A stretch of 29,436 nucleotides of DNA from Elusimicrobia bacterium HGW-Elusimicrobia-2 (GTDB lineage: Bacteria > CG03). Shown here piece after piece: positions 11,898 to 21,480 of this stretch. The notes below the pieces were generated by a model. That model saw only the letters and a list, made by a program, of their open reading frames with translations. It was not told the origin of the DNA and searched no databases. The stretch spans positions 1 to 29,436 of the forward strand of contig PHAM01000022.1 of NCBI GenBank assembly GCA_002841685.1. The letters run 5' to 3'. The position numbers and the translations under genes are program-made. Numbering within the stretch: position 1 is the stretch's first letter; each line of letters begins with the position of its first letter.

Positions 11898-11942
11898 AAA
11901 AAAAACCGCGCCTGTCCCGACACGTGATCGGGAAAGGCGCGG
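11898..11942 (-). terminator. Strong intrinsic terminator of the lysine-rich cluster
   Basis: A stem of 8 bp, one mismatch and 6 bp (arms 11906-11920 and 11928-11942) encloses the loop cacgtga. On the minus strand it is followed by eight T (complement of 11898-11905). It lies 11 nt past the lysine-rich stop. Read from nadE, the hairpin has only a broken A/T flank, so it is mainly a minus-strand terminator. Confidence 0.92.
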
Positions 11943-11953
11943 CCAAAAGAAAA

Positions 11954-12310
11954 CTATCTTTTTTTCTTTTTCTTCGCGACTTTCTTCTTCGCGACTTTTT
12001 TCTTCGCGACTTTCTTCTTCGCCGCTTTTTTCTTTTTCACAACTTTTTTCTTCACGACTTTTTTCTTCGCCGCTTTTTTTCTTTTCTTGCCGCCGCGGGA
12101 CATTGTGGCTTTCGCTACGTCACCGTTCTTGTCAAGAAAATAAAGAAAACCTTTCTCTTTTTTCACTCCGGCGTCGGTCAATTTTTTGGCTTTTCCGCCT
12201 TTTTTGCCCGCGCGAGCCATCGGAGCGGCCCAGACGTTTCCGTCTTTGCCGATGTAATAAAGATGGTTTTTCTCTCTTTTCAAACCAAGCTTAACAATTT
12301 TCTGAGCCAT
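11954..12310 (-). CDS. Lysine-rich histone-like protein with duplicated N-terminal motif
   Basis: A 118-residue, very basic protein. Residues about 7-37 and 47-76 are two copies of one motif: G, L or V, K, then EK, an LY pair followed by Y or F, K-D/N-G-N/D-V, and an M-A/S-R-x-GKK end (compare KNHLYYIGKDGNVWAAPMAR with KGFLYFLDKNGDVAKATMSR). Each copy could be a small beta hairpin. Residues 79-118 are AKKK/VVKKK repeats like the tail of histone H1 or the bacterial Hc1/AlgP types. It probably binds nucleic acid; whether DNA compaction or RNA binding cannot be told. The ATG at 12310 has GGAGG nine bases upstream, just past the 41-residue basic peptide stop. A strong terminator follows. Confidence 0.8.
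   Translation of the reverse strand: MAQKIVKLGLKREKNHLYYIGKDGNVWAAPMARAGKKGGKAKKLTDAGVKKEKGFLYFLDKNGDVAKATMSRGGKKRKKAAKKKVVKKKVVKKKKAAKKKVAKKKVAKKKVAKKKKKR
11957..12076 (-). repeat. Repeats encoding the AKKK tail of the lysine-rich protein
   Basis: Near-tandem 12-15-nt units (plus-strand form ttcttcttcgcgac and variants) encode AKKK/VVKKK blocks. Their similarity to the copies at 12328-12447 offers room for slippage or unequal recombination. Confidence 0.85.
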
Positions 12311-12324
12311 ACTAGATAGCCTCC

Positions 12325-12450
12325 TTACTTCTTTTTCTTTTTCGCTACTTTTTTCTTCGCGACTTTCTTTTTCACGACTTTTTTAGCGACTTTTTTCTTC
12401 GCCACTTTCTTCTTCACGACTTTTTTCTTCGCTGCTTTTTTCTTCGCCAT
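12325..12450 (-). CDS. 41-residue Lys/Ala/Val peptide, basic, overlapping the HTH gene
   Basis: A short frame from ATG 12450 to TAA 12325 encodes only M, A, V and K in AKKK/VVKKK blocks, the same pattern as the tail of the next gene. Translation is supported by a GGGGTGA ribosome site 5-11 nt before the ATG and by a stop 14 nt before the lysine-rich gene start. The first 68 bases lie inside the 3' end of the HTH gene, one frame over. It may be a free polycation with a job like the histone-like tail, or a duplicated tail left after a recombination event. A +1 frameshift from the HTH frame would instead fuse the HTH domain to this tail; nothing seen requires that. Confidence 0.6.
   Translation of the reverse strand: MAKKKAAKKKVVKKKVAKKKVAKKVVKKKVAKKKVAKKKKK
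12328..12447 (-). repeat. Second block of AKKK-encoding repeats
   Basis: The same 12-15-nt unit family as at 11957-12076, here encoding the 41-residue basic peptide. In the neighbouring frame over 12383-12450 the same repeats read as EEKS/EESG blocks at the end of the HTH protein. Confidence 0.8.
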
Positions 12451-12691
12451 TTTTCTCACCCCCTTTTACGATATTTTTTTTAGGCTGAAAAAGGGGTCCG
12501 TTCAAAGAAGATGTAATAATGTGTTCTTTCAGCCATGAATCGATTACCTGTTTAGAAAATTTATACTGCCTGCCTATTTTGGAGGCAGGTATTTTTTTGT
12601 CCCTGATCAGCTTGTATATCTTTGATCCGCTGACGCCTATATACTCTGCCAACTCGGAAACATTCATTATTTCTTTTTGCATAATCAACAT
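12383..12691 (-). CDS. Excisionase-type HTH DNA-binding protein with acidic tail
   Basis: A 102-residue protein of the helix-turn-helix 17 (excisionase/MerR-like) group. Residues about 7-58 hold MNVSELAEYIGVSGSKIYKL, the RDKKIPASKIGRQYKF wing and VIDSWLKEH. It probably acts as a small transcription factor. Residues 81-102 are a Glu/Ser/Lys-rich tail created by reading the lysine repeats one frame off; 68 bases are shared with the basic peptide gene. Three in-frame ATGs exist (12691, 12682, 12667). I choose 12691 because a near-consensus promoter puts the transcript start almost on it and no SD precedes any of them. It leads the cluster HTH, basic peptide, lysine-rich protein, and may control it. 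Confidence 0.8.
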   Translation of the reverse strand: MLIMQKEIMNVSELAEYIGVSGSKIYKLIRDKKIPASKIGRQYKFSKQVIDSWLKEHIITSSLNGPLFQPKKNIVKGGEKNGEEKSSEEKSREEESGEEKSR

Positions 12692-12699
12692 CCAACGGA

Positions 12700-12728
12700 A
12701 TTTTACATCTATTGCCTTTTGTTGTCAA
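12700..12728 (-). promoter_or_regulatory. Near-consensus promoter of the HTH/lysine-rich cluster
   Basis: TTGACA (12723-12728), 17 nt, then TAAAAT (12700-12705). Eight bases separate the -10 from the ATG at 12691, so the 5' leader would be 0-2 nt. The elements lie in the 47-base gap after the mfd stop. Confidence 0.75.
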
Positions 12729-12738
12729 GTGGTAATTT

Positions 12739-15660
12739 CTACCGCTCCCTTTTAGTAGGTACTGCTTTCGGCTGGAAACCGCTTTCAGGCGCGTTTCCTT
12801 GCTGGAATTTTTTAATCAAGTCCGATTGAGACAAAGCATAAAAAACGCTCTGACCGTTCTTGTTGACATTAAATCCGGAGGAGGTTTCTTCTATGCCGCT
12901 GATACCGGCCATGATAGCGGTGATTCTCAACCTGGCGGATTCCATGAGTTTTTTCACCTCTTCGGGATAACCCCCGAAGCGGTCAACAATTTCCGCCTCA
13001 TACCTGTCAAGCTGTTCAAGGATGCTGATCCTTGACAATCTCATGAGCAGCCGGAAACGCTCTTCCTGCGAAACGACATAATCCTCCGGTATATACCTCC
13101 CCCCGGAAGAAAAAACGATGCGGCATTCTTTTACATCCTCTTCTCCCTTCAGGCGTTTGACGGCTTTCTCAAGCAGTTTGAAATATAGCTCCGAGCCCAC
13201 ATCCTTAATATAGCCGTGCTGCTGGGGGCCGAAAATATTCCCCGCCCCCCGAAGCTCCATATCGCTCATGGCAATTTTCAGGCCAGAAGAGAGGGCGTCA
13301 TAATCCCTCAAAAATTCCAGGCGTTTCATGGAGTTCTTTTTTACTTCGGCGTCATAGAAAAAATAACAGTATGCCCTTTTAGCGCCTCTGCCGACACGGC
13401 CCCGGAGTTGATACATCTGAGAAAGGCCAAGAAGCTGCGATTTTCTTATTATGAGCGTGTTGACGTTGCTTATATCGAGTCCCGACTGGATTATCACGGT
13501 GGAAATGAGAACATCGTATTCTCCGTTAGCAAAAGCCATCATCACCTCCGAAAGTTTTTGGGCAGACATCCCCGCATGCGCGGTCACCACCCTGAGGCCG
13601 GGGAACATCTTCATAAAATCCTCACACAATTTATTTATCCCGGATATCCGGTTATACACATAAAAAATCTGTCCGCCCCGGGATATTTCACGGCGAACCG
13701 CTTCTCTGAGCAGATCATCATTATAGGAACCGGTAAAAGTTTCAACCCTCATCCGGCCGGGAGGCGGGCTTTCTATTATTGAAAACGACAGTATCCCCGA
13801 AAACGACATTGACAGAGTTCTGGGGATGGGCGTTGCCGACATCATGAGGATATCGGCAGAGGGATATCTGTTCTTCAGCAGTTCTTTCTGCCTGACGCCG
13901 AAACGGTGCTCCTCGTCTATGACGGCAAGTCCGAGTTTCGCGAAAACGATATCTTTTGAAAAGGCAGAGTGCGTGGCGATCAGTATGTCGGTGCGGCCGG
14001 ATGCGAGGCGCTCAACAACCTCCCCCCGGCGGGAAGAGCCGAACCTTGAAAGCATGTCTATTTCCACCGGAAAACCTTTAAAGCGCTCGCGGAAAACATA
14101 ATACTGCTGCTGCGCGAGGATGGTCGTGGGCACCACGCACACGGCCTGGTATCCACCCCAGCAGCATCTGAAGGCGGCCCTCATGGCGATCTCCGTTTTC
14201 CCGTAGCCCACATCGCCGCAAAGAAGATGCTCCATGGGAAAGGGCTTTTCCATTTCTGATAAAATCCGCCGGGAAGCAAGCCGCTGGTCGGGTGTTTCCT
14301 CATACGGAAAACTCCGGATAAAATCTTTTTCGGCTGGAGACGGCTTGAAAGAAACGCCACGGATCTTTTTTCTGCGAGCTCCGGTTTCCATGATCTCCCT
14401 TGCCATGCTGAACACATTCTTGTACACCCTGGATTTTTTATTTTTGAATTCGTCGGCTCCGAGCCTGGATATCACCGGCCTCACGCCGCGGGGAGCTTTC
14501 CAGCGGTGGAGTCTGGCGAACTCCTCCACCGGTATATGCGCTGTACCGTCCGCGTAAGCTATTGACACATAATCCACGGGCTTGCCCTTTATTTCAAACT
14601 CGGCCAGCTTGATGAATTTCCCTATACCGTAATCCTCGTGCACGACGATATCACCCCTCTTATACACCGCTTCAGGAGTAAATTTTTCCGCCGCAGTGGA
14701 TCGCGGCGCCGACGAAAGACGGCCCCCAAAACCCAATATCTCCGCGCTTTTAAGGCACAGGAGCTTATCCGGCCTTGAAAGGAATCCTCCCGATATATCA
14801 CCGTGAATGTATTCAGCGGGAATGCCATGACTGAAAGTTATCTCTTCTTCAAGGTATTCCCGCGCGTCGTTTCCGGCGCAAAATATTTTTATCCTGAATC
14901 CTTCAGAAGCGAAACTTTTCAGGTCTTTTAACAGGAAATCCATTCTGGCGCTGTAAACAGGCGCCCGTCTTATGCCTGTGTCGGCGCCGGCCGGCGAAAA
15001 AACATAGTCCGCCGCGGCGACGGCCTCAACCGAAACCCCGTCGGCGCGGGCGAGAGCGCAGGGCTCTCCGAAAAAAGAAAAAAGCTTTTCTCCGCCATGC
15101 GGACTCCCTGAAATTTCCGCCGTATCTATGCCCCTGCCGCTGAGCTGAGTTGATGGATCAAATAAATTAATGCTGTCGGCTCCGCTGATACTGAAACGTA
15201 TCCTGAAAGGATCCGGAGAGGCAAAATCCCATAAATCCATCACACTGCCTCTTAAAGAAAATCTACCCCTGTCAAAAACAAAATCGCTTTTCCCAAAACC
15301 CATTCCGCAAAGTTTCTTCGCGGCGTCCTGCGGTGACAGTTCCGCGCCCTTTACGATCCTGAAATTTTCAGCGAATTCATTCCGCGAAGGCACACCGCTC
15401 GCCACGGAGACGGCATCGCTTACAATGATATTTTTAGTCCTGTGGAGAAGATTTGAAAGTGCCCCTGCTCTCAGCGAATCATTCTCTGTAAAAAGGGAGG
15501 CGGCAGTCTCCCCCAATGCGCGAAGATCATTATACACCGCCTCCGCTTCCGGGGAATCTTCAAACACGGCGAGGACAATGTTATGTTCTTTCAGCAGGCC
15601 GGTCAGAAAATAAGCGCGGCCAGAAGAGAGGGAATCTCTTATTTTTTTAACCACCGCCAT
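12739..15660 (-). CDS. mfd: Transcription-repair coupling factor
   Basis: ATP-driven DNA translocase that removes RNA polymerase stalled at lesions and recruits UvrA. It has 973 residues (E. coli 1148). The shorter length lies mainly in the N-terminal UvrB-like part, whose opening is abbreviated. RNA-polymerase-interaction domain: about 331-395 (YKRGDIVVHEDYGIGKF). Motor: Walker A GDVGYGKT at 482-489, DEEHRFG, MSATPIPRTL, QSGLDISNVNTLII and QLRGRVGRG. The C-terminal domain includes SQEERFRLLMRL and DRFGGYPEEV and ends in a short basic tail. The ATG at 15660 has no SD and lies 19 nt after the ankyrin lipoprotein stop; it is the last gene of the recA train. No terminator was seen after it. Confidence 0.95.
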   Translation of the reverse strand: MAVVKKIRDSLSSGRAYFLTGLLKEHNIVLAVFEDSPEAEAVYNDLRALGETAASLFTENDSLRAGALSNLLHRTKNIIVSDAVSVASGVPSRNEFAENFRIVKGAELSPQDAAKKLCGMGFGKSDFVFDRGRFSLRGSVMDLWDFASPDPFRIRFSISGADSINLFDPSTQLSGRGIDTAEISGSPHGGEKLFSFFGEPCALARADGVSVEAVAAADYVFSPAGADTGIRRAPVYSARMDFLLKDLKSFASEGFRIKIFCAGNDAREYLEEEITFSHGIPAEYIHGDISGGFLSRPDKLLCLKSAEILGFGGRLSSAPRSTAAEKFTPEAVYKRGDIVVHEDYGIGKFIKLAEFEIKGKPVDYVSIAYADGTAHIPVEEFARLHRWKAPRGVRPVISRLGADEFKNKKSRVYKNVFSMAREIMETGARRKKIRGVSFKPSPAEKDFIRSFPYEETPDQRLASRRILSEMEKPFPMEHLLCGDVGYGKTEIAMRAAFRCCWGGYQAVCVVPTTILAQQQYYVFRERFKGFPVEIDMLSRFGSSRRGEVVERLASGRTDILIATHSAFSKDIVFAKLGLAVIDEEHRFGVRQKELLKNRYPSADILMMSATPIPRTLSMSFSGILSFSIIESPPPGRMRVETFTGSYNDDLLREAVRREISRGGQIFYVYNRISGINKLCEDFMKMFPGLRVVTAHAGMSAQKLSEVMMAFANGEYDVLISTVIIQSGLDISNVNTLIIRKSQLLGLSQMYQLRGRVGRGAKRAYCYFFYDAEVKKNSMKRLEFLRDYDALSSGLKIAMSDMELRGAGNIFGPQQHGYIKDVGSELYFKLLEKAVKRLKGEEDVKECRIVFSSGGRYIPEDYVVSQEERFRLLMRLSRISILEQLDRYEAEIVDRFGGYPEEVKKLMESARLRITAIMAGISGIEETSSGFNVNKNGQSVFYALSQSDLIKKFQQGNAPESGFQPKAVPTKRER

Positions 15661-20613: not shown

Positions 20614-21480
20614 TCAGCTGCGGGGATGAAAACGGCGGTGTATCTGGCGGAGCCGCTTGGTGGAAATGTGCGTGTAGATCTGAGTTGTGCTGATCTGAGC
20701 GTGGCCGAGCAGCTCCTGTATAACGCGAAGATCAGCTCCGTTCTGGAGAAGATGCGTCGCAAAACTGTGCCTGAAAGTGTGCGGGGTTATCCGCCTTGTG
20801 ATACCGGCGTCCGCGCAGAGTTTTTTTATTATTTTCCACACGCCCATACGGCTGAACGGCGCGCCGGACGGATTGCGGAAAAGGGAATTCCCCTCTTCCG
20901 CGGGAGAAAAAAGCAGAAAAGCCTTCACCGCGGAGCAGGCTTTTTCTCCTATCGGAACAATTCTTTCTTTTCCTCTTTTGCCCAGGCATTTGAGAAAACC
21001 CACATCAAGATTGACGTCTTTGACCTTTAACGATATCAGTTCGCTGATTCTCAAACCGGCGCCGTAAAGCACTTCTATCATGGCGGTATTCCTCAAAGAT
21101 GTCCTTCTGCCCCGCGCTACCCGGTTTATAACCTGTTCCACCTCCGAGACGCTGAGAACATCCGGCAGATAGCTTTCAAGCCGAGGGCTCCTCAGGGCGG
21201 AAGCGGGATTACGCTGCGCCATACCGTCCTCCACCAGGAATTTCCAGAAACTTCTAAGAGCGCAGATCTTCCTCGCCAGAGTGCGGGATGAAACACCGCT
21301 TCTTTTTTCCCTTAAAAAAGCAGTGATGTGTTTTTCACCTATATTCGCGACCGGAACGTCAATCGTTGAGAAAAATTCCCTGATATCTCTTGTGTAAGCC
21401 TGGATGGTGAGCTTTGACAGGCCTCTCTCCGAAGCACAATAACCCCCGTATTCGGCAAGAAGCGCCGAAGCTTTATCCAT
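20614..21480 (-). CDS. xerD: Tyrosine recombinase XerD/XerC
   Basis: Chromosome-dimer resolution recombinase of the phage integrase family, 288 residues. The N-terminal SAM-like core-binding domain spans about 1-95 and the catalytic domain about 105-288. Catalytic set: R144 (GAGLRISEL), K168, H234/R237 (HTFRHSFATHLL), H260 (LLGHAQISTTQIYTH) and the nucleophile Y269; all are present. XerC or XerD cannot be separated with certainty by eye, and no second copy is in the window. The ATG at 21480 is 14 nt after the recA stop with a weak GAAG site. Its place next to recA makes sense as a joint recombination unit rather than a mobile element; no att site or cargo is seen. Confidence 0.92.
   Translation of the reverse strand: MDKASALLAEYGGYCASERGLSKLTIQAYTRDIREFFSTIDVPVANIGEKHITAFLREKRSGVSSRTLARKICALRSFWKFLVEDGMAQRNPASALRSPRLESYLPDVLSVSEVEQVINRVARGRRTSLRNTAMIEVLYGAGLRISELISLKVKDVNLDVGFLKCLGKRGKERIVPIGEKACSAVKAFLLFSPAEEGNSLFRNPSGAPFSRMGVWKIIKKLCADAGITRRITPHTFRHSFATHLLQNGADLRVIQELLGHAQISTTQIYTHISTKRLRQIHRRFHPRS

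Follow-up and report, generated by a model that had tools for sequence, protein, structure and literature searches.

A lysine-rich minigene probably accounts for the read-through tail of an overlapping helix-turn-helix gene in an Elusimicrobia genome

Introduction

Does one stretch of Elusimicrobia DNA serve two proteins at once, or does one of its two open frames come for free? The question arises in the 29,436-nucleotide stretch analysed here (the window; contig PHAM01000022.1 of Elusimicrobia bacterium HGW-Elusimicrobia-2), where the ORF of a helix-turn-helix (HTH) protein (12691..12383) and a short lysine-rich ORF (12450..12325), both on the minus strand, share 68 nt (12450..12383). The lysine-rich (K) frame is +1 relative to the HTH frame. 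A first-pass annotation read the shared bases as the acidic tail of one protein and part of a basic peptide, and proposed either that the two products bind each other through their opposite charges or that capture of a repeat had deprived the HTH gene of its own end. In a survey of 338 genomes, no co-directional overlap longer than 60 nt was accepted as real, the longest being the 56 nt of holD-rimI (PMC2478687). Under published neutral models, same-strand overlaps arise more commonly through 3' extension of the upstream gene (PMC3887535), and selection need not be invoked for them (PMC3887535, PMC2542354).

Results

Gene order and gene products

The overlap lies in a unit on the minus strand that runs from a sigma-70-type promoter, TTGACA-17-TAAAAT (12700..12728; 11 of 12 consensus bases), to an intrinsic terminator (11904..11944; -31.7 kcal/mol, z -6.3), with the gene order HTH, K-rich minigene, 118-aa basic protein. 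The mfd gene lies upstream and ends at 12739. The relatives examined likewise have a TTGACA-box promoter ahead of the HTH gene, and tRNA-Val was the sole match in an Rfam search.

The HTH ORF (12383..12691) encodes 102 aa, read-through tail included. It matches PF12728 (HTH_17; E 7.8e-14, 52.1 bits against a curated cut-off of 27) and the excisionase family TIGR01764 (54 bits against 28.8), and these matches, with the promoter, bear out the earlier view that domain and promoter both back the protein. A fold is predicted with confidence over residues 7-61, similar to those of excisionases, RacA and BldC; in a fold search it superposed on RdfS at 1.2 A over 52 columns with probability 1.00, at an E-value of only 0.011. 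By profile score and predicted winged-helix fold, the protein belongs with the HTH_17/excisionase family, sharing the domain and predicted fold of RdfS (8dgl) and BldC (6ama). Unlike that family, it is linked to a basic-protein gene rather than to an integrase, and it carries the read-through tail. A phage excisionase would be expected beside its integrase, but no integrase adjoins the gene; a single recombinase-like ORF (XerC/D-like by eye) was seen, 8 kb off at 20614-21480, and relatives keep the basic-protein gene as the neighbour. Comparison with relatives places the conserved part, the domain plus a PLF motif, at residues 9-68 (12488..12667). Residues 76-99 mostly have pLDDT below 50, and the tail is thus predicted to be disordered.

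The minigene (12325..12450) encodes 41 aa of KKKVA-type pentamers in a tandem repeat with a 15-nt period and 7.3 copies. Four A separate its Shine-Dalgarno site, GGGGGTGAG (12455..12463), from the ATG at 12450, and its stop, at 12325, lies 14 nt ahead of the ATG of the 118-aa gene (12310), so that the peptide does have its own ribosome site and a stop just before the next gene, as had been noted. The site and the ATG are kept in every relative that has the minigene, the site reading GGGGGTGAG, GGGAGGTGAG or GGAGGTGAGG. The peptide had no family match in Pfam or NCBIfam, and a literature search found no named lysine-rich protein in Elusimicrobia. With its tandem lysine-rich pentamers containing Ala and Val, it resembles chlamydial Hc2 and the bacterial H1-like proteins (PMC2848022). 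It differs from them in size (41 aa against 165-237), in having three lysines per pentamer where they have two charged residues, and in the lack of a sequence family match; on sequence, the likeness would extend to the pentamer repeats, and neither to size nor to sequence similarity.

The 118-aa protein (11954..12310) has two KxGxKxxxxLYYxxKDGxV units, predicted to form three strands each (six in all), and a KKKVA tail, predicted as a long lysine-rich helix. Searches of Pfam, NCBIfam and PHROGs gave no credible match, and neither a PDB profile search nor a fold search gave a credible relative among solved structures. Its 76-aa core (12083-12310, minus strand), with two KxGxKxxxxLYYxxKDGDVxxAxMARG units, represents a widespread small basic family for which we found no Pfam, NCBIfam or PDB match. 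One scan with the core gave at least 360 coding matches, with relatives in Elusimicrobiota, Omnitrophota, Neomarinimicrobiota, Woesearchaeota and others. Several of these cores, from unrelated phyla (L067, L055-L065, L093, L100), carry Lys/Ala-rich C-terminal tails of very different lengths, a distribution that suggests that H1-like tails may have been gained repeatedly on the basic core. On two further contigs, L094 and L110, from Omnitrophota and Woesearchaeota, separate short lysine-rich ORFs lie downstream of the basic-core gene; K-rich minigenes there may therefore have arisen more than once. The minigene DNA in the window is about 82-85% identical to that encoding the tail of the 118-aa protein, which is compatible with copying from the tail and also with convergence of simple repeats.

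The overlap in relatives

We compared the HTH gene of the window with orthologues from five other genomes, three from the same genus and two more from the family, making six genomes in all; the search in one more family genome, G005, found no orthologue. The same overlap in the same phase was seen in G001, G002, G003, G004 and G006, and also on a more distant contig, L081, which is labelled Clostridia and groups with the window's family in the tree (86/89). Overlaps in the six genomes measure 17, 22, 22, 25, 27 and 86 codons, and that of L081 measures 11. In G004 (L005:1729-1990) the minigene is triplicated, the copies lying 75-90 nt apart and each complete with ribosome site, start and stop; through all three the HTH frame is open, up to the next gene. 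Thus, at all seven loci that have the K-rich ORF the HTH frame reads into it. Since the overlap is common to relatives and constant in phase, it is not a sequencing error, and the arrangement is real and inherited. ORF reading and relatives together confirm that the 68 bases are open in two frames, one apart, on the same strand; the shared part was underestimated at a third of the peptide, and in fact makes up just over half of its 41 codons (codons 1-22).

Many Elusimicrobiota basic-core genes have an HTH gene upstream, mostly close by. Where no K-rich ORF intervenes, a stop of their own follows the domain by at most about 20 codons in the HTH relatives of this phylum, with ends such as QMPLFKTK, MGLFEKKGNR and KKEPATK directly before the stop codon. 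The contrast between these early stops and the seven loci that read in fits the proposal that capture of the repeat cost the HTH gene its own end, and it disposes of a tail conserved across HTH homologues. Distant HTH_17 matches outside the orthologous group also have no such tail, and these, being paralogues, were given little weight. Core relatives from other families of the window's phylum were observed with neither the HTH gene nor the KKKVA tail.

Three of the linkers between HTH domain and minigene differ in length from that of the window (-3, +21 and +39 nt), in each case by a multiple of three, and no linker acquired a stop. Were the HTH frame unconstrained and the events independent and single, the chance of this would be 1/27. 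Constant phase and in-frame linkers hint weakly that read-through was kept, or that the other phases are harmful, and they are the one finding that sits uneasily with the by-product reading. Translational coupling via overlap is well known in operons, and ribosomes finishing the HTH gene might have to cross the minigene start in order to open or pace its translation, the tail residues being irrelevant; the shared phase at seven of seven loci and the in-frame linker changes would fit, as would the pairing of the ribosome-site G run with an upstream C run in one fold of the window segment, made without a shuffle control. However, the overlap varies in length between 11 and 86 codons and favours no particular end point, a ribosome site so near to consensus should suffice by itself, and the commonest overlaps are of 1 or 4 nt (PMC3887535). 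We therefore regard selected coupling as rather unlikely. The more specific proposal that read-through was kept on purpose, with a phase-locked overlap coupling a DNA-binding regulator to a histone-like, DNA-compacting peptide in all lineages that have it, strikes us as improbable.

A-rich runs within and ahead of the overlap could be taken to favour a programmed +1 frameshift that joins the HTH domain and the lysine-rich peptide in one product. Yet in four of the six genomes a K-frame stop lies a short way upstream of the ATG, the run that is 8 A long in the window has 6 to 9 A among relatives, no slippery site is conserved, A6G is by inspection out of the canonical frame for either ORF, and the minigene has a start of its own. 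A fused product, which the first-pass annotation had raised, is thus not indicated and seems scarcely credible, and fusion by frameshift or slippage was rejected after frame reading across the six genomes.

Composition and substitution pattern

The HTH-frame tail in the window, NGEEKSSEEKSREEESGEEKSR, has 9 Glu against 5 Lys/Arg, a net charge of about -4. It is indeed net negative, as is the tail in most relatives, but only mildly acidic, and across relatives the charge varies between about -6 and, in G004, near neutral. The position of the tail stop also differs in almost every lineage. For the HTH frame to stop inside the minigene, a K-frame codon with T as its last base must be followed by a lysine codon, mostly as GCT-AAR. 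As a null we took codon usage in the non-overlapping Lys-rich tails of the 118-aa genes of the same genomes. Simulated overlaps averaged 20 to 34 codons, the observed length was reached or exceeded with a probability of 0.66-0.84 per genome, and the observed overlap fell below the simulated mean in five of six genomes. Moreover, the tail of the 118-aa gene is overlapped by no other gene, and in the window the same shift turns it into EKKKSGEEKSREEKSCEKEKSGEEESREEKSREEESREEKEKK; such shifted tails give a Glu/Ser/Lys text, which in four of the six genomes no stop interrupts. Simulation and shifted tail together make the composition of the HTH tail a property of the repeat; an open, acidic HTH frame inside the K-rich ORF is a chance outcome of lysine-rich codons.

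Substitutions point the same way. Between G000 and G001, differences at HTH codon positions 1, 2 and 3 number 1, 0 and 11 in the domain and 5, 0 and 0 in the overlap, where the first position of the HTH codon coincides with the wobble position of K-frame codons. With two disjoint pairs pooled, the ratio of position 1 to position 3 is 10:3 in the overlap and 10:39 in the domain (Fisher P = 0.0003). This shows the K frame as the dominant constraint in the overlap, although with few genomes a weak constraint on the HTH frame may exist beside it. Overlap and phase are shared by relatives, but purifying selection in the overlap is visible in these few genomes for the K frame only.

Two readings can be weighed on this evidence. 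In one, the Glu-rich tail is functional and binds and modulates the minigene product or the 118-aa protein; a net negative charge in the window and most relatives would suit it. We consider this very doubtful, given that the charge is near neutral in G004, substitutions track the K frame, the same text stands in an unused shift of the 118-aa tail, and other HTH relatives have no tail at all. The suggested binding through opposite charges gains no support from a tail that is predicted to be disordered, evolves as the silent side of the K frame and varies in stop and charge. In the other reading, the K-rich ORF is an untranslated spacer copied from the 118-aa tail. It is a simple-sequence repeat without a database family, but the conserved Shine-Dalgarno site and ATG, the wobble-biased substitutions and the three complete units in G004 make a mere spacer highly improbable.

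Discussion

We suggest that the HTH tail, which gives no hint of a role of its own, is probably an out-of-frame by-product of the K-rich minigene, left after the HTH stop was lost. A unit with one promoter and one terminator would encode a small winged-HTH regulator, a lysine-rich mini-protein and a basic two-repeat protein. The ancestral HTH gene would have ended no more than about 20 codons beyond its domain. We infer that, in the ancestor common to L081 and the window's family, a KKKVA minigene came between the HTH and basic-protein genes, possibly as a copy of the Lys-rich tail of the latter. The HTH stop would then have been lost, and the frame would enter the minigene one base out of phase and end wherever TAA is formed by chance across a GCT-AAR junction of the K frame. 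If both frames are translated, the added 11-86 residues would be a tolerated, disordered, Glu/Lys/Ser-rich by-product. Any consequence would presumably be translational, in that ribosomes finishing the HTH gene would cross the ribosome site of the minigene, and would not be a property of the tail.

The locus resembles same-strand overlaps formed by 3' extension (PMC2478687, class iii; PMC2542354; PMC3887535): on sequence comparison the upstream HTH gene is longer than its relatives, the offset is +1 (phase 1), and both genes lie on one strand. At 68 nt it exceeds the maximum of 56 nt accepted in the survey (PMC2478687), and it differs in being common to several genera.

This is a long same-strand overlap that resembles dual coding and most likely is not. 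Lysine-rich repeats, when shifted, yield long open Glu/Ser/Lys frames for free, and such 'acidic partner' ORFs elsewhere should therefore be discounted. Pairs of an HTH gene and a basic-core gene, with a TTGACA-box promoter ahead of the HTH gene, recur across Elusimicrobiota, the two genes being further apart at some loci, and the basic protein may be regulated by, or co-regulated with, the HTH protein. The surrounding unit, an HTH regulator with a basic two-repeat protein that occurs in several little-studied phyla, merits more attention than the overlap.
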